A DNA stretch of 64,000 nt from Pseudochrobactrum saccharolyticum (lineage in GTDB: Bacteria; Pseudomonadota; Alphaproteobacteria; Rhizobiales; Rhizobiaceae): positions 1 through 64,000 of the forward strand of contig NZ_VZPG01000006.1 in assembly GCF_008801715.1 (NCBI RefSeq), in the 5' to 3' direction. A program made the translations under genes and the position numbers. Positions 44,473-57,928 of this stretch are shown here, one piece after another. The notes below the pieces were generated by a model that saw only the letters and a list, made by a program, of their open reading frames with translations, made no database searches and was not told the origin of the DNA. The first letter of the stretch is position 1; the number at the start of each line of letters is the position of its first letter.

Positions 44473-44497
44473 GGAACAATCATAAACCTGACGCATT
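44473..44497 (+). promoter_or_regulatory. Near-consensus EcfG promoter of the 52-residue membrane protein gene
   Basis: GGAAC (44473-44477) is followed after 17 bases by ATT (44495-44497), one base off the EcfG consensus GGAAC-N17-GTT. It lies about 70 bases before the start codon. The same GCATT variant occurs in front of nepR. Confidence 0.5.
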
Positions 44498-44565
44498 AAA
44501 GCCGCATAATGCAGTGCATACCGTTATTGACTGACACCAATATCATCATGCTCCGGAGACAGTAG

Positions 44566-44724
44566 ATGTTGCACAAAGACATGCAAACCATTGAAACTGC
44601 CGCCCGTACCGCAATGGCGGGATCTTATGAACCGGAACAACAGGAAAACGCGGTCTTACGTACCGGTTTTTATGTGACAGCCGGTTGTATTCTGATTGCA
44701 GCTCTCATTCTTATGATTGCCTGA
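44566..44724 (+). CDS. Small membrane protein of 52 residues, unknown function
   Basis: The short frame begins MLHKDMQTIETAARTA and ends with a hydrophobic helix (about residues 34-52, TGFYVTAGCILIAALILMIA). CGGAGACAG lies at good distance before the ATG. The cytoplasmic start is amphipathic and rich in Ala, Glu and Gln. A near-consensus EcfG promoter upstream and the neighbouring stress genes suggest it belongs to the general stress response. It has no family I can name and is too short to be found by length-filtered gene callers. Confidence 0.65.
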   Translation: MLHKDMQTIETAARTAMAGSYEPEQQENAVLRTGFYVTAGCILIAALILMIA

Positions 44725-44876
44725 CACTCCTGCACTTTCTCTCAGGTTTCCAATACAGGCTATGCCCGGCATATGCCTGTCTGCTTCCGCATGGTCTGAA
44801 TTTGGAAACTGTGGCAATTAACCTTGGCAGCTGAATATCATCCTGACCGGCAACTGCTCTCTGGCGATGAATGCAC

Positions 44877-44901
44877 GGAACCATTACGTTAAAGCCACGT
44901 T
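44877..44901 (+). promoter_or_regulatory. EcfG promoter of the YqjD/YqjE-like pair
   Basis: GGAAC (44877-44881) and GTT (44899-44901) are separated by exactly 17 bases, in the context GGAACC...ACGTTAT. This fits the EcfG consensus. It lies 90 bases before the start codon at 44991. Confidence 0.8.
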
Positions 44902-44990
44902 ATATTTCTGAACCCAGACAATATGACTGAGCAGTCTCAAAGAAAATGAAATTGCTCAGTCATTTGAAATTTCAGCTTCCGGAGGCATCC

Positions 44991-45320
44991 ATGGCTCGTG
45001 ATACCAAAATCGTAAATGACATTCAGGACGACAGCACAGCAGAATTGCAGGCACAGATTGCCCAGCTTAAAGAAGATATTGCATCGATTGCCGCAACACT
45101 GACAGAAATGGGCTCACGAAAAATCAATCAGGCCAGACAAGATGCATCCGATGCCTATCAGGATATTTATGAACAGGGCGAAGATGCTCTGAGTTCTCTG
45201 AAGGACAGTGCCTGCTCCCTTGAGCAACAGGTCACCGATTATGTTCAGGAACGTCCGGTCACATCGATCGCTCTGGCAGCCGCGTTCGGTTATCTTTTCG
45301 CAGCTCTGACACGGCGCTGA
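44991..45320 (+). CDS. DUF883/YqjD-like membrane-anchored protein
   Basis: This 109-residue protein has a long amphipathic helix or coiled coil (about residues 10-85) rich in Ala, Asp, Gln and Glu, and a C-terminal membrane helix ERPVTSIALAAAFGYLFAAL followed by TRR. That architecture matches the DUF883 (ElaB/YqjD) family, in which E. coli members are stationary-phase, inner-membrane proteins that bind ribosomes. GGAGG lies five bases before the ATG at 44991. The YqjE-like gene starts one base after its stop, and an EcfG promoter lies upstream. Confidence 0.8.
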   Translation: MARDTKIVNDIQDDSTAELQAQIAQLKEDIASIAATLTEMGSRKINQARQDASDAYQDIYEQGEDALSSLKDSACSLEQQVTDYVQERPVTSIALAAAFGYLFAALTRR

Positions 45321-45321
45321 T

Positions 45322-45780
45322 ATGCTGAAATTGTTCACACCGGTCATTTCAGCCATTATCGGCAGCGAAGTGCAGGCCGCAACGCAGCGCGCCAAACGCA
45401 GTGCCATTCTCTATGCGATTATGGCCGTGGCGCTGCTCACAGGTGCGTTCTTTCTGCTCCTCGCAGTCTTTTTCATTCTCATGATGAAATACGGTCTGAT
45501 TATCGCAGCTCTGATGATCACAACTGGCTGTGTGGTGCTGGCGATCCTTGCCTATATCGTCAACCGCGTGATGGATAAGGCCGAGAAACGCCGTCTAGAA
45601 GAAAGACGCGCTGCGATTGACACCAATGCAGCGCTCACAGCAGCAGCGGTTGCCGCCGTGCCGACCTTGCTCAAAAAACCGCTTTTAACTTTAGCAGTAC
45701 CGCTTGCAGGACTGATTGCAGTGACATTGCTGTCGCGGGACAAAAAATCCGGCAATAAAAAGCAGGATCAGGGCGGATAA
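45322..45780 (+). CDS. YqjE/phage-holin-superfamily-like membrane protein
   Basis: This 152-residue protein has two close membrane helices near residues 30-75 (YAIMAVALLTGAFFLLLAVF and LIIAALMITTGCVVLAILAY), a charged KRRLEERRAA loop, and a third, weaker hydrophobic stretch near 120-135. It matches the putative Actinobacteriophage-holin superfamily III/YqjE pattern, which occurs in chromosomal stress operons and is not evidence of a prophage. It follows the YqjD-like gene by one base, paralleling E. coli yqjD-yqjE. Confidence 0.78.
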   Translation: MLKLFTPVISAIIGSEVQAATQRAKRSAILYAIMAVALLTGAFFLLLAVFFILMMKYGLIIAALMITTGCVVLAILAYIVNRVMDKAEKRRLEERRAAIDTNAALTAAAVAAVPTLLKKPLLTLAVPLAGLIAVTLLSRDKKSGNKKQDQGG

Positions 45781-45806
45781 GTTCCGCCCCCTCTCCCTTC
45801 GCAGTT

Positions 45807-45834
45807 TTAGGGCCGCAGTGTTAGGGCCGCAATG
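45807..45834 (+). repeat. Two tandem 14-base units
   Basis: TTAGGGCCGCAGTG is followed directly by TTAGGGCCGCAATG, differing at one base, in the gap between the YqjE-like gene and the next small gene. It looks like a recent slippage duplication. Confidence 0.8.
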
Positions 45835-45884
45835 TTCGGGTCAAGGAGTTCAGTCCGCAAAGCCAAACCCTAAGGAGACCATTA

Positions 45885-46121
45885 ATGACCAGTTCAACAA
45901 AAGCACAGCTTAATGAGATCCTCGCAGATATGTCCCTCACCAATCTGGATAAATCTGCTGCTATTCTGAAACTTCAGGAAGATGCGCGCGATCTTCAGCG
46001 CGCCGCAACAGAAGGCGGCATGGACCCTGATGACGGGCTGAACAAGGACCTGCGGGAAATTGAACTTGCACTGGAAACACTCGGTGTCAGTTCGGATGAG
46101 ACCGGAGCAGCAACGCTTTAG
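45885..46121 (+). CDS. Small acidic soluble protein, unknown function
   Basis: The 78-residue product begins MTSSTKAQLNEILADMSLTN and is predicted to be helical and acidic, with heptad-like Leu spacing and no membrane segment. GGAG lies seven bases before the ATG. It lies 105 bases after the YqjD/YqjE-like pair on the same strand without a terminator in between, so it may be the third gene of that EcfG-controlled unit. I do not recognise a family. Confidence 0.65.
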   Translation: MTSSTKAQLNEILADMSLTNLDKSAAILKLQEDARDLQRAATEGGMDPDDGLNKDLREIELALETLGVSSDETGAATL

Positions 46122-46230
46122 AGCATTTCTGCCAGACCATGTCGCGGAAAAATGGGCACCGGTTTTCCGATAACGACATGCGCGACACAAGGAGACAGAG
46201 CGAGCGCAGTGGATACAATTAAACGCGTCA
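46119..46230. repeat. RIME-like palindromic intergenic repeat, copy 2
   Basis: Starting TAGAGCATTT, it contains the hairpin CATGTCG/CGACATG with inner GGAAAA/TTTTCC around ACCGG, followed by GAGACAGAGCGAGCGC and AATTAAACGC. It closely matches the copy near 13571 throughout its length. Confidence 0.75.
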
Positions 46231-46253
46231 CACTCTGATTGCTCCGGCTATAA

Positions 46254-46288
46254 ACAACACCGCACAAAGCGATTTGTGCGGTGTTTTC
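46254..46288. terminator. Intrinsic terminator between the stress genes and the lipid kinase gene
   Basis: A perfect 13-bp stem AACACCGCACAAA/TTTGTGCGGTGTT has a 4-base loop and is followed by TTCAT on the plus strand. It can end the rightward small-gene transcript; on the minus strand it lies about 25 bases past the lipid kinase stop. Confidence 0.85.
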
Positions 46289-46311
46289 ATGCGCTCGCCA
46301 ATTCTGACCAG

Positions 46312-47217
46312 TCAGTTCTCACTCTGCGGCACCAGCACGCGCAATGCCGCCGGATGAATACGAATATCCAGCTCGGCCGGTAATGGCAGTAATTCACCGT
46401 CAACAGACATATACTGATGCGCTTTATGATTGAGGATTGTCAGCTGAACTGAACGGGCATGGTCTTCCTCAATCGCCAGATTACTGCGCCACTGTCCGCG
46501 CGCAATATCCCAGAACAGCTTAAGCATACCGCTGACGGGAAGAGGCTTTGCCAGATAAAAACCGAGATGTCCTGTCTGCACATCCGGTGCAACGGGCAGC
46601 ACACTGTCTCCGTAAGGATTGTTCGACACGGCAAGGGCAGAATACACCCCTTTGACTGCGCGCCCGTCAATATCCGCAACCGCTTTCACGCGCGGTACAT
46701 GGGTAATCAGCTGCCCCATAGCGCGGAAATTCGCCAGAATTTTCCCCAAACGCGAGGCATAGCTGTATTTTTCACGATATCTGACCAGCATCGGATGGAG
46801 ACCTATCGCCACCTGATGCACAAAGGACTGGCCGTTACAGGTACCGATATCAACATTTTCAGCACCAGCCTTTGCCAGTGCGTGAATGGCCTCAGTAACA
46901 TTTTGCGGAATATTCAGTGAGCGGGCGAAGAGGTTCATCGTACCAGCTGGCAACACGCCCAGAATTTTATCATTCTGCCAGGCCAGTGCAGCTGCCGCAG
47001 AAATCGTGCCGTCACCGCCACCGGCCAGCAGCACATCATAATCATGATTTTGTGCGGCTTTTTCCAAAGCGGCAAGAATATTATCACCATCTGTCAGCAC
47101 ACAGGACAGTTCGTGCCCCTCGGCAGCAAAAGCAGCACATGCGTCATCAATAAACGCATCAATATCCATCGTCCGCAAAGTGCCGCTTTGACTGTTGAGA
47201 ACAGCAATAATCTTCAA
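46312..47217 (-). CDS. Diacylglycerol kinase family lipid kinase (YegS-like)
   Basis: This 301-residue protein phosphorylates a membrane diacylglycerol or related lipid at the cytosolic face. The catalytic domain shows the GGGDGT nucleotide loop (LAGGGDGTISAAAA, near residue 62) and GVLPAGTMNLFARSL, hallmarks of DAGK_cat; the C-terminal domain is of the YegS/LuxE-associated type. The ATG at 47217 opens MKIIAVLNSQSGTLRTMD. It lies between the stress genes and ecfG; no EcfG site was found before it. Confidence 0.92.
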   Translation of the reverse strand: MKIIAVLNSQSGTLRTMDIDAFIDDACAAFAAEGHELSCVLTDGDNILAALEKAAQNHDYDVLLAGGGDGTISAAAALAWQNDKILGVLPAGTMNLFARSLNIPQNVTEAIHALAKAGAENVDIGTCNGQSFVHQVAIGLHPMLVRYREKYSYASRLGKILANFRAMGQLITHVPRVKAVADIDGRAVKGVYSALAVSNNPYGDSVLPVAPDVQTGHLGFYLAKPLPVSGMLKLFWDIARGQWRSNLAIEEDHARSVQLTILNHKAHQYMSVDGELLPLPAELDIRIHPAALRVLVPQSEN

Positions 47218-47280
47218 ATAAATCTCCGCTCCGGATGACAGCTAATCATTCGGTCACACTCTGATGATCGCAAAAACCGT

Positions 47281-47829
47281 TTAGAAAGAGCGCATCGTCA
47301 CTTGGGACGACGTATCATCGGGGCCGTAATCAGAATTACCTTTAACATCGAGCAATTCCTGCAGCCGGACACGCGCACGGCTGACACGGCTCTTGATTGT
47401 GCCGACAGCACATTCACAGATTTCCGCAGCTTCTTCATAGGAAAAGCCGGAAGCGCCGATCAGAATAATGGCTTCACGCTGATCATCCGGCAATTCGTTC
47501 AGAGCCTTGCGAAAATCCTGCAAATCCAGCGATCCGTATTGAGACGGATGAACGGCCAGCCGCTCCGTATACAACCCGTCCGTATCCTGTATCTCACGGC
47601 CGCGCTTACGCATCTGGCTGTAAAACTCATTACGCAAAATCGTAAACAGCCAGGCTTTGATATTGGTGCCCATTTCGAAACTGTCGCGCTTGCCCCACGC
47701 TTTCATAATCGTATCCTGCACCAGATCATCAGCCTTATCCTGCTGACCTGATAAAGATACCGCGAAAGCCCGCAAGCCCGGCAGGGCCGCAAGCATCAGC
47801 CGCTTGAATTCGTCTCTCTCCTCCGCCAT
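47281..47829 (-). CDS. ecfG: EcfG-type general stress response sigma factor
   Basis: EcfG (SigT/RpoE1-type) directs RNA polymerase to general stress genes after the PhyR-NepR partner switch. The 182-residue protein has sigma-2 (ADDLVQDTIMKAWGKRDSF, with FTILRNEFYSQMRKRGRE) and sigma-4 (LPDDQREAIILIGASGFSYEEAAEI and GTIKSRVSRARVRL, in parts), no extra domain, and the EcfG spacing. The ATG at 47829 follows nepR by five bases; AAGGA lies ten bases upstream. Its nepR neighbour and facing phyR gene define the conserved stress locus. Confidence 0.95.
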   Translation of the reverse strand: MAEERDEFKRLMLAALPGLRAFAVSLSGQQDKADDLVQDTIMKAWGKRDSFEMGTNIKAWLFTILRNEFYSQMRKRGREIQDTDGLYTERLAVHPSQYGSLDLQDFRKALNELPDDQREAIILIGASGFSYEEAAEICECAVGTIKSRVSRARVRLQELLDVKGNSDYGPDDTSSQVTMRSF

Positions 47830-47834
47830 TCCTG

Positions 47835-48092
47835 TCAATTCCTTGAATGAGAAGCAGATTTACGTTCAGCCTGATCCAGTTTCTCCAAAAGATCAAGAAA
47901 ACGGTCAGGAATCGTTTCATCCTGAATACTGGAATAAAGAGCACGCAATTTGGAACCGATCTCGGAATTGGGTCCCAGTTCATCGCCTTTATTCAAACTG
48001 CCGGCCTGCGAGCTGCCTTGCGCGGAAAAATCGCGCGAAAATGAGGTCATAGCGTTGTCTTGATCCTGAAGCGGTTTCTTAGTGTTGGTCAT
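47835..48092 (-). CDS. nepR: Anti-sigma factor NepR
   Basis: NepR holds EcfG inactive until phosphorylated PhyR binds it. The product of 85 residues has the short conserved NepR block at its C-terminal half: LGPNSEIGSKLRALYSSIQD and PDRFLDLLEKLDQAE. The N-terminal part is disordered and variable. The ATG at 48092 was chosen; an ATG 13 codons further in is also possible and would give 72 residues. It overlaps the region before ecfG by a few bases and is cotranscribed with it, facing phyR. Confidence 0.92.
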   Translation of the reverse strand: MTNTKKPLQDQDNAMTSFSRDFSAQGSSQAGSLNKGDELGPNSEIGSKLRALYSSIQDETIPDRFLDLLEKLDQAERKSASHSRN

Positions 48093-48220
48093 CTCAGTCG
48101 TATTCCGGTTAATGCCACCAGAGCTCAGCTGCGGCTCTGATGTGATCTTGATGCGGCCTTGGTGCGGCCCTGTTTCAAGCACTAAAACCCTGCCCGATTG
48201 AGACGCTGTATCCAAGTCAT

Positions 48221-48245
48221 AATGCGGGCGTGAATAATTAGTTCC
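48221..48245 (-). promoter_or_regulatory. Near-consensus EcfG promoter of nepR-ecfG
   Basis: On the minus strand GGAAC (245 to 241) is followed after 17 bases by ATT (223 to 221), one base short of GTT. It points toward nepR and lies back to back with the phyR promoter, so the sigma factor would amplify its own operon. Confidence 0.6.
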
Positions 48246-48253
48246 CAAACACA

Positions 48254-48278
48254 GGAACAATTTTTATAGTCAGCCGTT
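48254..48278 (+). promoter_or_regulatory. EcfG promoter of phyR
   Basis: GGAAC (48254-48258) and GTT (48276-48278), in the context CCGTTAG, are separated by exactly 17 bases. It lies about 50 bases before the phyR start codon and only nine bases from the oppositely directed nepR site. Confidence 0.85.
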
Positions 48279-48329
48279 AGAACCATAAACAGGCTGTAAT
48301 CCTATCAGCCCATATAAATGGAGCATTCA

Positions 48330-49127
48330 ATGTCATTGTCCACGCGTATTGCACCACATTTGCCATATCTGCGCCGTTTCTCGCGCGCCGTGACCGGCTC
48401 TCAGTCAGCCGGAGATGCATATGTTGCAGCAATTCTCGAAACTCTGATCGATGATATTTCTGTATTTCCTGAGGCCTCATCCGATAAGATAGCGCTCTAT
48501 CGTCTTTATTCCAGTATTTTCGACCGTACTTCTGTCGAAATTCCGGAAACCGACTCTCAGCATGCATGGGAAAAACGGGCCGCAAATAATCTGGCAATGC
48601 TGACTCCACGTTCGCGTCAGGCTTTTCTTCTGGTTTCCGTTGAAGGCTTTAATGAAAAAGAAGCCGCAGAGATCATGCAGGAAGACGAAGCCGGTTTTTC
48701 AGCTCTGCTGACGGAAGCCTCGGAGCAGATTTCCCGCCACGTTGCCACCCGCATTCTGATTATCGAAGATGAGCCGCTGATTGCCATGGATATTGAACAG
48801 ATGGTGGAGACGCTGGGACATGAAGTTGTGGGCATCGCCCGCACCCATCAGGAAGCGCTGACACTTTATAAGGCAGAAAAACCGTCGATGGTTCTGGCGG
48901 ATATTCAGCTTGCAGACGGCAGTTCAGGCATCGATGCGGTCAATGATATTCTCAAAAGTGATACAATTCCGGTTATCTTCATTACCGCGTTCCCGGAACG
49001 TCTTCTGACAGGAGAACGCTCGGAACCGACCTTCCTCGTTACCAAACCGTTCAATCCGGATATGGTGAAGGCGCTTATCAGTCAGGCGCTGTTTTTTGAA
49101 GAAGGTTCGCTGGCAAGAGCATCATAA
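48330..49127 (+). CDS. phyR: General stress response regulator PhyR
   Basis: PhyR is the anti-anti-sigma factor of the alphaproteobacterial stress response. When phosphorylated, its sigma-like domain binds NepR and frees EcfG. The 265-residue protein has an N-terminal ECF-like domain (about 1-135, with RQAFLLVSVEGFNEKEAAEIM) and a C-terminal receiver domain from RILIIEDEPLIAMDIEQM; the phospho-acceptor is Asp191 in VLADIQLADG. GGAG lies seven bases before the ATG at 48330; an ATG four codons earlier lacks a site. It faces nepR-ecfG across a pair of EcfG promoters. Confidence 0.96.
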   Translation: MSLSTRIAPHLPYLRRFSRAVTGSQSAGDAYVAAILETLIDDISVFPEASSDKIALYRLYSSIFDRTSVEIPETDSQHAWEKRAANNLAMLTPRSRQAFLLVSVEGFNEKEAAEIMQEDEAGFSALLTEASEQISRHVATRILIIEDEPLIAMDIEQMVETLGHEVVGIARTHQEALTLYKAEKPSMVLADIQLADGSSGIDAVNDILKSDTIPVIFITAFPERLLTGERSEPTFLVTKPFNPDMVKALISQALFFEEGSLARAS

Positions 49128-49169
49128 TTGGCAAATTGAACAGGGATTTGAGCTGAAAATGCTTTAGCC

Positions 49170-49194
49170 GGAACCAAAACCCGCAACGGGCGTT
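49170..49194 (+). promoter_or_regulatory. EcfG promoter of the DUF1328 gene
   Basis: GGAAC (49170-49174) and GTT (49192-49194) stand exactly 17 bases apart, in the context GGAACC...GCGTTAT, a perfect match to the EcfG consensus. It lies 83 bases before the DUF1328 start codon and 43 bases after phyR. Confidence 0.82.
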
Positions 49195-49276
49195 ATTTTA
49201 ACATGCAATGACCTTCAAAAATCCGGTCATTCCATAAAGCGGGCAATTCTTTACCTGCCTGCAAGAGGAGGTTGAC

Positions 49277-49441
49277 ATGTTATATTATGCTGTAGTTTTT
49301 CTGATTATCGCCATTATCGCCGGTGCTTTGGGTTTTGGTGGTATTGCCGGTGCATCAACAGGCATAGCGCAAATTCTGTTCTTTATTTTCCTCGGCTTAC
49401 TGTTGCTGTCACTGATCGCCAGCATCATAAGGAAAGCATAA
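49277..49441 (+). CDS. DUF1328 family small membrane protein (YtjA-like)
   Basis: This 54-residue protein begins [20 protein letters not shown] and has two membrane helices separated by [12 protein letters not shown], ending [10 protein letters not shown]. It is a clear member of DUF1328 (YtjA), small inner-membrane proteins often induced in stress but without a known function. A perfect GAGGAGG precedes the ATG. It lies behind an EcfG promoter between phyR and the sensor kinase, as such genes often do in this order. Confidence 0.88.
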
Positions 49442-49480
49442 ATGCTGCAAAGCAATACGATCCGAAAACATCTGAACGGG

Positions 49481-49501
49481 ACGCCCGCGACGCGTCCCGA
49501 A
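49481..49501 (+). other. GC-rich hairpin after the DUF1328 gene
   Basis: GGGACGC/GCGTCCC with a 7-base loop lies 40 bases past the stop codon. It lacks a T run, so it may attenuate or protect the transcript rather than end it before the kinase gene. Confidence 0.5.
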
Positions 49502-49567
49502 CCTGTCTTGTGCGGAGCAATACTGTACCGCAGCTTATGCCGGTTTTAAGCACAGAAAGCGCAGACT

Positions 49568-50650
49568 ATGGCTCCTACTTCGCCCGTTTCAGGATATAGC
49601 AGTGCCGCTCAGATCCGGTTACGCTCTATGTTGCGAGCCATAAGAAACAGCAATGTTTCGGTTTTTTATCAAACCACGGATATGAATTACACTTGGGTAG
49701 AAAATCTGCCGGAGTTCTGGCTTTTGCCATGGCGCACGGGCATCGGTGAAAGTGACCTGATGCCCAAAGATATTGCGGCCAGACTGACAACTGCCAAAAG
49801 CCAGCTGCTTGCGACCGGCGATGCCCAGCGTCTGGAAATTTCGTTCCCCGACAAGAAAAATCCCCGCTGGTATGAATTCTTCATCGATTCCGACAAGGAT
49901 GAAAGCGGCGAAACTATCGGCATCGTCACGACTGCCGTTGAAATAAGCGAGTTGAAACACCGCGAGCAGGTTCTCAAAATATTGTTGCGCGAAGTCAGCC
50001 ACCGCTCAAAAAATCTGCTGGCCATTATTCAGAGTATCGCCATGCAGACAGCACGGTTCTCCGGCTCGGTGGATCAGTTCTTGCAAAAATTCCGCGGCCG
50101 TCTCTATTCCCTGTCCAATTCGCAGGATCTGGTAACGGATTCCAACTGGCATGGCGCAGCCTTTCGGGAATTGCTGCATTCACAGCTGGAAAAATACATC
50201 CATCCCAAAGATCCGCGCCTGACGATTACCGGCAAAGATGTTTATCTTTTCCCCGGAGCAGCACTGCATGTCGGCCTTGCTTTCCACGAATTGATTGTCA
50301 ACTCCGCCTCTTATGGCGCACTGGCCTGTGAAAATGGCAGTCTGACGATTTCAGCGGAGCTGGAGCCGGACGGTGAAGGCGAGATGGATCTGATTATTCA
50401 CTGGAAGGAAACAAGTCCTGCAACGGAAAACGATCTGTCCGGCCGTCCGCCGGATATATTAGCTACCGAAAACCACATGCATGATGAAGTGTCAGACCTT
50501 AAAATAAAATCCTATGAAACATCCCGTTTCGGCAGCGCGGTTTTGCTGCGGATCGTTCCTCAGGCCGTCAGCGGTACGGCCTGCTACAGGATTGAGGATA
50601 AGAGCGTAGAATATTATCTGCGCATTCCCCACCGGAATTTCGATTTTTAA
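49568..50650 (+). CDS. HWE/HisKA_2-type sensor histidine kinase, PhyK-like
   Basis: This 360-residue protein is a likely kinase for PhyR. An N-terminal PAS domain (about 15-125, ending VTTAVEISELK) is followed by the HisKA_2/HWE dimerisation domain with phospho-acceptor His145 in REVSHRSKNLLAIIQSIA and the ATPase domain whose N box is FHELIVNSASYGAL. No membrane helix is seen, so it is cytosolic. HRxKN-type kinases next to phyR control its phosphorylation in several Alphaproteobacteria. The signal it senses is unknown, and its ribosome site is weak. Confidence 0.9.
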   Translation: MAPTSPVSGYSSAAQIRLRSMLRAIRNSNVSVFYQTTDMNYTWVENLPEFWLLPWRTGIGESDLMPKDIAARLTTAKSQLLATGDAQRLEISFPDKKNPRWYEFFIDSDKDESGETIGIVTTAVEISELKHREQVLKILLREVSHRSKNLLAIIQSIAMQTARFSGSVDQFLQKFRGRLYSLSNSQDLVTDSNWHGAAFRELLHSQLEKYIHPKDPRLTITGKDVYLFPGAALHVGLAFHELIVNSASYGALACENGSLTISAELEPDGEGEMDLIIHWKETSPATENDLSGRPPDILATENHMHDEVSDLKIKSYETSRFGSAVLLRIVPQAVSGTACYRIEDKSVEYYLRIPHRNFDF

Positions 50651-50868: not shown

Positions 50869-51030
50869 ATGGCATAAAAAAATAGCGCGCTCCGGAACAA
50901 CAGCTCCGTGAGCGCGCGGACCGGGGATTAGGGGGCGTGCCCGCGGTCGGTGAAAGGCCGAACTTGTGAGGGGGCGGAAAGTCAGCCTTTCACAAGGTTC
51001 ATAACGCCCATCCAGGCAATAAGTTTCACA
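50869..51030 (-). ncRNA. Candidate small RNA downstream of fur
   Basis: The minus strand between the fur stop codon and a very strong terminator folds into several stems: GTGAAAGGC with GCCTTTCAC, an alternative CTTGTGA with TCACAAG that overlaps it, and GACCG/CGGTC. Two loops carry the same C-rich motif GCCCCCT. It contains no open frame with a ribosome site. The start is not located, so the left and right limits are approximate. It could be an independent sRNA or a piece of the fur 3' region; no known family was recognised. Confidence 0.5.
50874..50918 (-). terminator. Strong intrinsic terminator of the candidate small RNA and fur
   Basis: Read on the minus strand, GCGCGCTC/GAGCGCGC with a further CGG/CCG extension closes a short loop and is followed by TATTTTTTTA. 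It is GC-rich and has a long T run. Confidence 0.92.
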
Positions 51031-56638: not shown

Positions 56639-57928
56639 TTAGTCCTGAAACGGATCTGTTACCAGAATTGTATCGTCACGCTCAGGGCTGGTCGAGAGCA
56701 TGGAAACCGGCGTACCGATCAGCTCTTCAATATAGCGAACATATTTCACAGCCTGTGCTGGCAGCTCATTCCATGAACGGGCACCGGCAGTTGTATCTTT
56801 CCAGCCTTCCAGCGTTTCGTAGATCGGCTTGACGCGTGCCTGTGCATCCATAGAGGCTGGCAGATAATCAATGCGTTTGCCGTCCAGCTCGTAAGCCACG
56901 CAAACCTTGATTTCATCCAGACCGTCAAGAACGTCCAGCTTGGTCAGTGCAATACCGGTAATACCGGAGGTGCGCACAGTCTGCTTAACCAGAACCGCAT
57001 CAAACCAGCCGCAACGGCGGGAGCGACCGGTGTTAACGCCAACTTCACGACCAACGGTCGAGAGATGTTCACCGATTGCATCATCCAGTTCGCACGGGAA
57101 CGGACCTTCACCAACGCGGGTGGTGTAAGCCTTGGTAATACCGAGCACATAACCGATTGCTGTCGGGCCAAGACCCGAACCGGCCGCTGCCTGACCGGCA
57201 ACAGTATTGGACGAAGTTACAAACGGATAGGTACCGTGGTCGTTATCGAGCAGCGCACCCTGCGCACCTTCAAACAGAATACGGGCACCGGCTTTGCGCT
57301 TGTCGTCCAGAATCTTCCAGACCTGATCCACATAAGGCAGGATCTTGTCAGCAACTTCTGTCAGTTCATTATGGATGCTGTCGACGGAAATTTCGGCAAG
57401 TCCCATACCGCGACGCAGCGCATTGTGGTGGGTCAGCAGGCGTTCAATTTTCGGACGCAGGCTTTCAGGCTCAGCCAGATCGATCACACGGATGGCACGA
57501 CGGCCAACCTTATCTTCGTATGCAGGGCCGATACCGCGCTTGGTAGTACCGATTTTCAGACCGGCAGAACCGTCTTCACGGATCGCGTCCAGCTCACGGT
57601 GCAGAGACAGGATCAGAGGAGCATTTTCAGCAATGCGCAGAACTTCAGGGGTTACTTCAACACCCTGCGCGCGCAGCTTTTCAACTTCTGTCACGAAATG
57701 ATGCGGGTCGACGACAACGCCGTTACCAATAACGGAAAGTTTGCCGCGTACGAGGCCGGAAGGAAGCAGTGCCAGCTTGTAGCTTACACCGTCAATCACC
57801 AGAGTATGACCGGCATTGTGGCCGCCCTGATAACGCACGATTACATCAGCGCGTTCCGACAACCAGTCAACGATCTTACCTTTACCTTCGTCGCCCCATT
57901 GCGAGCCGACGACGATCACATTAGCCAT
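56639..57928 (-). CDS. purA: Adenylosuccinate synthetase
   Basis: PurA joins aspartate to IMP with GTP, the first step from IMP to AMP. The 429-residue protein has the family length. Its N terminus carries the GTP loop in [18 protein letters not shown] with the catalytic Asp, and the later [42 protein letters not shown] and [16 protein letters not shown] blocks are intact. The ATG at 57928 matches other members. The acetyltransferase, serA and serC genes lie upstream on the same strand. Confidence 0.98.

Follow-up and report, generated by a model that had tools for sequence, protein, structure and literature searches.

Does the general stress response (GSR) switch of Alphaproteobacteria control only its own genes, or also the small membrane-protein genes that stand beside them? 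The question is raised by a 64,000-nucleotide stretch of Pseudochrobactrum saccharolyticum DNA (contig NZ_VZPG01000006.1, positions 1 to 64,000; hereafter the window), in which an island at 44473-50650 carries nepR-ecfG and, divergently, phyR, together with a gene for a 52-residue microprotein, a pair of genes resembling yqjD and yqjE of Escherichia coli (DUF883-YqjE) and a DUF1328 gene. The PhyR-NepR-EcfG switch, its promoter motif and the associated class of small RNA are already known. The analysis supports, with good confidence, reading the locus as the Pseudochrobactrum general stress response locus plus a set of its own outputs, which would be under EcfG control. We infer this control for DUF883-YqjE, DUF1328 and the 52-residue gene because of site conservation and because homologous promoters have been studied experimentally in Rhizobium etli, where fusions to the phyR, ecfG1 and ReC64 promoters are EcfG-dependent (PMC3892343; published work is cited throughout from parts of each paper's text). 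The layout and most of the promoters recur in many relatives, an indication that a membrane module which gut bacteria keep under an unrelated stress regulon is here driven by the general stress response.

EcfG-type sites and genes of the island

A sequence-only reading of this DNA had placed five EcfG-type sites in the island, three of them perfect (GGAAC-N17-GTT) and two with ATT in place of GTT, and a motif scan found all five at those positions; a sixth site, GAAAC-N16-CGTT, had been overlooked. The five match GGAAC-N17-RTT (the RTT form), and since they end in either CGTT or CATT the island motif was rewritten as GGAAC-N16-C(G/A)TT. The sites and the genes they bear on are as follows.

44473..44497, plus strand: EcfG-type site GGAAC-N16-CATT, before the 52-residue gene
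44566..44724, plus strand: 52-residue membrane microprotein, one hydrophobic C-terminal stretch (by eye), no Pfam or NCBIfam family
44877..44901, plus strand: EcfG-type site GGAAC-N16-CGTT, before the DUF883-YqjE operon
44991..45320, plus strand: DUF883 family protein (YqjD/ElaB-type, C-terminal glycine-zipper anchor), from a family profile compared with YqjD
45322..45780, plus strand: YqjE-like membrane protein (PF07332), 1 bp behind DUF883
47281..47838, minus strand: ecfG, general stress sigma factor (PRK12516 and PRK12547 above cut-off; the open reading frame, ORF, opens at TTG, with an ATG at 47829)
47835..48092, minus strand: nepR, anti-sigma factor (PF18557, E 1.4e-16)
48221..48245, minus strand: EcfG-type site GGAAC-N16-CATT, before nepR-ecfG (read from 48245)
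48254..48278, plus strand: EcfG-type site GGAAC-N16-CGTT, before phyR
48318..49127, plus strand: phyR, anti-anti-sigma response regulator (PRK09191 above cut-off)
49170..49194, plus strand: EcfG-type site GGAAC-N16-CGTT, before DUF1328
49277..49441, plus strand: DUF1328 (YtjA-type) small membrane protein (PF07043, E 9.6e-15, 55.1 bits against a cut-off of 27)
49568..50650, plus strand: PAS-HWE histidine kinase (PF07536, E 2.6e-25, above the Pfam cut-off)
50875..50998, minus strand: GsrN/ReC64-like small-RNA candidate, C-rich hairpin loops, intrinsic terminator
51003..51027, minus strand: sixth EcfG-type site GAAAC-N16-CGTT, one -35 mismatch, before the small-RNA candidate

The coordinates bear out the earlier proposal that three of the sites precede small membrane-protein genes (the 52-residue gene, the YqjD/YqjE-like pair and DUF1328), and the gene identities were upheld by scores against Pfam- and NCBIfam-type profiles, with the DUF883 and YqjE-like assignments weak when the window proteins are taken singly. 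nepR-ecfG, phyR and the kinase gene occur together, each above a curated cut-off, as in EcfG stress loci of Alphaproteobacteria; the NepR protein passes the PF18557 cut-off yet falls below that of the NCBIfam model antisigmaTNepR (24 of 100 bits). The nepR frame probably starts at 48092, and its ORF shares 4 bp with the listed ecfG ORF. The DUF883 ORF opens at 44946, and the gene probably starts at 44991, where a MARDTK/MARETK beginning is common to five relatives of the same genus.

The motif is short and shuffling predicts about 3.5 RTT matches for the window, which leaves room for the five sites to be chance matches. The window holds 11, a number reached or exceeded in 1 of 100 shuffles. 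None of the five island sites is inside an ORF of at least 150 aa, whereas the six remaining matches (2128, 10354, 14230, 19003, 52207 and 52883) all fall within such ORFs, as does a longer-spacer match at 57832. Furthermore, three perfect sites between 44473 and 50650 compare with 0.09 expected from the genome-wide rate (54 in 3.76 Mb; P about 1e-4). A chance origin, to which we attach next to no probability, is refuted by the strong conservation of the sites and a count of zero for the reversed CGTT motif (see below), the exception being the site of the 52-residue gene, for which the evidence comes from a single genus.

Conservation of the sites in relatives and across the genome

Conservation of the sites in relatives, the check that the sequence-only reading had set for itself, was followed in two sets of loci. 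In the smaller, drawn from 61 genomes (the organism itself, its genus, family and order), the best 30 loci per query were scored for a site no more than 300 bp from the matched start; for DUF883 and DUF1328 these were the best 30 of 37 genomes with a match, and seven of the 30 belonged to the genus. Perfect CGTT sites preceded DUF883 in 18/30, DUF1328 in 22/30 and phyR in 18/30, against 0.04-0.08 in shuffled stretches, and one of the DUF1328 misses (L121) had only 91 bp of upstream sequence. The larger set consisted of named PhyR loci, the best 80 of at least 584 confirmed candidates, taken with flanks of up to 10 kb per side; it is an uneven sample, made up of the relatives closest to the query among the candidates listed (Brucella, Devosia, Rhizobium and kin). 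At least 7 of the named loci come from genomes also in the 61-genome set, so the two tests are not independent.

Among the 80 named loci, DUF883 was found in 74, the YqjE-like gene in 74, DUF1328 in 47, NepR in 79 and the HWE kinase in 66. A G(G/C)AAC-N16/17-CGTT site lay within 400 bp upstream of DUF883 in 69/74, of DUF1328 in 45/47, of phyR in 70/79 and of the kinase gene in 30/66 (in Pseudochrobactrum, the site scored for the kinase may be that of DUF1328); the reversed motif gave 0 for all four. The window has no GGAAC-N17-RTT site directly upstream of its kinase gene, which is perhaps read from the DUF1328 promoter. The nepR site, scored in the RTT form and mostly CATT, was present in 78/79, so that conserved EcfG-type promoters stand before both arms of the switch. 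Reversed RTT controls gave 1 for DUF883, 1 for nepR, 2 for DUF1328, 6 for the kinase, 1 for the 52-residue gene and 0 for phyR and YqjE. The conservation check was therefore borne out for DUF883, DUF1328, phyR and nepR; for the 52-residue gene it held in the genus only. These counts support the earlier proposal that links the YqjD/YqjE-type pair to the EcfG switch.

The -35 box was widened from GGAAC to G(G/C)AAC after the data had been seen, which raised the DUF883 count from 50/74 to 69/74, and the reversed control was widened likewise. Loss of the DUF883 site in Brucella-type genomes was ruled out, as GCAAC-N16-CGTT stands there at the same place where Pseudochrobactrum has GGAAC. A -35 box changed to GCAAC while the -10 box and spacing were kept argues for selection on a working promoter. 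GGAAC and GCAAC are also the two most frequent -35 boxes of Sphingopyxis stress promoters (PMC7083833).

The 52-residue protein has homologues (M-KDIQ-LE-AARTAMAG...) in Brucella/Ochrobactrum-type relatives and in one Mesorhizobium. A CATT-form site preceded the gene at 7/8 loci of the 61-genome set, the seven being all those of the genus with the organism's own included, and at 5/5 named same-genus loci; five of the seven same-genus genomes are shared between the sets. In the five named relatives (L198-L202) PhyR is 91-100% identical to that of the window. One of these records, L201, is titled Bacillus subtilis strain SK6B4 and has a Pseudochrobactrum-like stress locus; it is probably mislabelled or contaminated.

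Two further DUF883 matches of the genome stand away from the island:

C6:170332: second DUF883 match, site at C6:170235 (genome profile search and motif scan)
C2:717604 (C2:717170-717804): third DUF883-like gene, following a transglycosylase-associated (YmgE/GlsB-type) gene, apparently in one operon; perfect site at C2:717170

With the island's own gene included, a perfect site stands upstream of every one (3/3) of the genome's DUF883 profile matches; the naive chance of all three having one within 450 bp is about 3e-8, for a distance picked after seeing them. Across the class, 76 of 241 genomes had a DUF883-profile match, and among the 30 loci examined (own included, 450 bp upstream) GGAAC-N-CGTT was found in 13 (12 of the best 29 non-own loci) and GGAAC-N-RTT in 16; reversed controls gave 0 for the GGAAC forms and 1/30 for G(G/C)AAC-CGTT. 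The DUF883 gene also tends to accompany the switch. In the 61 genomes it was found in 36/41 of those where PhyR was matched over its full or nearly full length and in 1/20 of the others, a contrast that may be inflated by the single-sequence query and by small or incomplete genomes among the 20, and it lay within 12 kb of a PhyR gene in 33/37 genomes where it was found.

Genome-wide, it is the placement of the sites that is enriched. Outside ORFs lay 10-13 of the first 30 perfect matches against 2-4 of the first 30 reversed ones (P 0.007-0.02, depending on ORF length), the first 30 being taken in contig order, i.e. 30 of 54 matches and 30 of 74 reversed; many of the remaining matches fall within ORFs. 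Sites outside long ORFs precede, by 24-107 bp, the starts of, among others, genes for a Dps-type ferritin, CsbD, Transgly_assoc, two lipocalins, DUF892 (which we take to be YciF-type) and MgtC, and further genes behind such sites encode a sigma-70 region 2 protein, presumably RpoH2-like, the second DUF883 and several unassigned small proteins. When loci from 41 genomes were scanned per family, perfect sites were found for CsbD in 16/30, for DUF892 in 9/30 (21/30 in the RTT form) and for Transgly_assoc in 5/30, with reversed controls of 0 for the perfect form and 1 for the RTT form of DUF892. In this genome a perfect site precedes 1/4 CsbD and 1/3 Transgly_assoc matches; for CsbD C3:153170 (below cut-off) and Transgly_assoc C1:355743 the verdict of no site comes from the genome-wide site list alone. 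Meanwhile, a cluster of three perfect sites was seen at C3:158900-162900 (L149), before a DUF892 gene, a gene for a basic protein of 103 residues that shows KGG-like repeats to the eye and has no Pfam match, and a gene for a 113-residue protein with a signal-like start.

Several observations weigh against a locus that commands its neighbours in this way. Perfect matches number 54 genome-wide, compared with 74 for the reversed pattern, so there is no enrichment by count and the count alone is uninformative. Homologues of the 52-residue gene beyond the genus lack a site of the tested form in 17/17 cases with enough upstream sequence, DUF883 has no site, even as RTT, in the named loci L213, L223 and L276, and 14 of the 29 non-own class-wide DUF883 loci have no GGAAC-N-RTT within 450 bp; one class-wide locus cut by a contig end, L306, still had no site with the right offset. 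The Sinorhizobium meliloti kinase adjoining the locus is, we presume, SMc01507. An RpoH-like promoter is given for SMc01507 (PMC3616915), and the adjoining kinase of the window may not act on PhyR, given a report that the two kinases at the Brucella GSR locus do not phosphorylate it (PMC4438053).

The missing enrichment by count and the siteless 52-residue homologues would also suit a narrower explanation, in which EcfG drives only the switch genes (phyR and nepR-ecfG) and the RNA, and the sites before the membrane genes are relics or serve other sigma factors. This is considered very unlikely: the -10 box and spacing retained behind GCAAC in Brucella-type genomes argue for a working promoter, both -35 boxes are the leading ones in Sphingopyxis, and the DUF883 paralogues outside the island are sited as well. 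A stress locus with its own membrane outputs is thus the reading retained.

Switch promoters, small-RNA candidate and neighbouring genes

The divergent nepR and phyR sites (48221-48278) have their -35 boxes 8 bp apart. The nepR site ends in CATT in 66 of the 78 named loci that have one, and the phyR site in CGTT in 70 of the 78 that have one, and these are the commonest forms in each of four lineage groups, drawn up from record titles and locus layout. In the 61-genome set the nepR site is CATT in 16/30 and CGTT in 6/30, and the phyR site CGTT in 18/30 and CATT in 5/30; the two -35 boxes lie 7-10 bp apart in 20 of the 24 loci with both sites found, seven of which are the genus itself. For Sphingopyxis a flexible -10 box is reported, CGTT being its commonest form (PMC7083833). 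The difference between CGTT and CATT and the closeness of the -35 boxes may set the ratio of PhyR to NepR, either through weaker firing or through mutual hindrance; with the two promoters in so fixed a geometry, the claim can be put to the test.

Behind the kinase gene, between it and a gene we take to be Fur-like, the sixth site (51027-51003, minus) is followed by a small-RNA candidate of about 124 nt with a strong terminator (50875-51027 with its site). The minus strand of 50870-51025 folds with a z of -4.2, and 0/200 shuffles were as stable. The GAAAC form of the site recurs in 5/5 same-genus relatives (L198-L202), and 47 of the 64 named loci whose kinase gene is on the plus strand have a G(G/A)AAC-type site with a T-run in the corresponding position, a few of them doubtful (e.g. 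L235), against 0 for the reversed motif and 1 for the plus strand. No Rfam small-RNA family exceeded its cut-off at the locus. The candidate lies near the GSR locus behind an EcfG-type promoter (with its one -35 mismatch) and has an exposed C-rich loop and a terminator, and on position and architecture it may be grouped with GsrN of Caulobacter and ReC64 of R. etli, which resemble it in proximity to the GSR locus, EcfG-type promoter and C-rich loop (PMC5869019, PMC3892343). ReC64 lies downstream of phyR-tcrY, with a transcription start that agrees with the EcfG1 motif (PMC3892343), and R. etli, S. meliloti and Brucella abortus have predicted GsrN homologues close to the locus (PMC5869019).

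Two further genes complete the island:

45885..46121, plus strand: 78-residue protein, no family match over cut-off in Pfam or NCBIfam
46312..47217, minus strand: DAGK/YegS-type lipid kinase (profile match), 63 bp behind ecfG

The lipid kinase gene is possibly in the same transcript as nepR-ecfG. Between the two genes, 46138-46180 shows a weak likeness to the Brucella small-RNA families BASRCI27 and BASRCI408 (22-23 bits, far under their cut-offs) and is perhaps a dispersed repeat.

Taken together, the sites allow a model of the locus to be proposed. Under stress, PhyR would be phosphorylated and pull NepR off EcfG, and EcfG-RNA polymerase would then fire the island promoters at once. Two back-to-back promoters would feed the switch itself, that of phyR with a consensus -10 box and that of nepR-ecfG with a conserved off-consensus CATT, while a third would drive the DUF883-YqjE operon and a fourth DUF1328 and perhaps the kinase gene behind it. 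A genus-specific promoter would drive the 52-residue microprotein and a last one the GsrN/ReC64-like small RNA.

Possible function of the membrane pair and known systems compared

What the pair would do under stress depends on how closely it resembles its E. coli namesakes. A profile of the 27-member DUF883 family matches E. coli YqjD (hhalign E 1.3e-9, probability 96), and the C-terminal anchor domain DUF883_C is matched by 22/27 members at E<=0.01 (best 1.3e-8); the window protein alone gives E about 1.1e-3 to 1.3e-3, below the curated cut-off. The Pfam DUF883 N-terminal domain is matched by 4/27 members at E<=0.01, and a generic coiled-coil-type model (Apolipoprotein) also matches 13/27. 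PF07332, the model that E. coli YqjE also matches, is found in 18/24 members of the YqjE-like family at E<=0.01 (best 3e-9) and in the window protein alone at E 1.3e-4, below the curated cut-off; direct comparison of the family profile with E. coli YqjE was not significant (E 0.042). In 67/74 named loci the YqjE-like gene stands behind DUF883, in the same orientation and at most 150 bp away by profile coordinates.

By analogy with E. coli YqjD and YqjE only, the two products of DUF883-YqjE would anchor ribosomes at the membrane and retard growth, E. coli YqjD having been reported to bind ribosomes (PMC11302039). A serious contender, to which slightly less than even weight is given, accepts the small membrane genes as EcfG targets and has the pair guard the envelope, through a holin-like or permeability role or membrane stiffening, with no silencing of ribosomes. 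The YqjE-like proteins do belong to a holin-type model (PF07332), the sited genes of this genome include lipocalins and a transglycosylase-associated membrane protein, and PA3040-3042 of Pseudomonas aeruginosa, which encode a related pair, are AlgU-controlled and tied to envelope stress (PMC11302039). The DUF883 member, however, keeps by profile match the C-terminal anchor of the ribosome-binding YqjD, and the function of E. coli YqjE itself is not known (PMC10746276).

A broader proposal, put forward tentatively and with more doubt than confidence, builds on ribosome tethering. Alphaproteobacteria would have wired the pair, along with DUF1328, CsbD, DUF892 and YmgE-type genes, to EcfG, whereas gammaproteobacteria would have put several of these families under sigma-S and the pair under both sigma-S and AlgU. 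The pair would then be a core quiescence effector, acting by membrane-tethered ribosome silencing under at least three unrelated stress sigma factors and placed in Hyphomicrobiales beside the switch, which itself would possess a conserved ratio-setting device in the back-to-back phyR and nepR promoters, with their 7-10 bp between -35 boxes and a difference in strength between CGTT and CATT.

A search of open text found no link of DUF883, YqjD or ElaB to EcfG, NepR, PhyR, RpoE2 or SigT, and none of DUF1328 to EcfG or NepR; supplementary regulon tables and subscription papers lay outside its scope, and regulon tables may well list DUF883 and DUF1328 genes without naming the family. A passage on Ensifer lists DUF1328 proteins, its text naming neither EcfG nor RpoE2 nor PhyR (PMC6637203). 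Most genes that the alphaproteobacterial GSR turns on have no known function; in S. meliloti, 150 of the 202 protein genes raised by rpoE2 overexpression are without known function (PMC3616915). The YqjD/YqjE-type pair, DUF1328 and their relatives, as genes that recurrently carry conserved EcfG sites, provide a short list of candidates.

The closest known system is the ecfG1-phyR-tcrY locus of R. etli, which has the same ecfG-phyR-kinase arrangement, the GGAAC-N16-CGTT motif and a non-coding RNA behind the kinase (PMC3892343); the sited DUF883-YqjE, DUF1328 and 52-residue neighbours of the window are unmentioned in the parts of its main text covered here. The yqjCDEK genes of E. coli likewise have a DUF883 gene followed at once by a PF07332 gene under stress-sigma control, in that case with a sigma-S promoter, whereas the pair in the window has an EcfG-type site. 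Transcripts of yqjC and yqjD are sigma-S dependent and yqjE is reported to be upregulated by RpoS (PMC10746276), which agrees, for E. coli, with the stationary-phase character that the sequence-only reading had ascribed to the enterobacterial pair. In P. aeruginosa, PA3040-3042 comprise a YqjD-like and YqjE-like pair that is controlled by an extracytoplasmic function sigma factor and highly induced in stationary phase (PMC11302039), but AlgU is an envelope-stress sigma factor held by MucA and not the partner of a PhyR-NepR switch. Finally, the table of sigma-S-dependent small proteins of Salmonella includes YmgE, YjbJ (CsbD), YtjA (DUF1328) and KGG proteins (PMC5437024), so that the Transgly_assoc, CsbD and DUF1328 families found behind EcfG-type sites here recur there under another sigma factor, the overlap with this genome being by family alone. 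The list of candidates overlaps the sigma-S regulon, and one function could therefore be tested in two distant stress systems.

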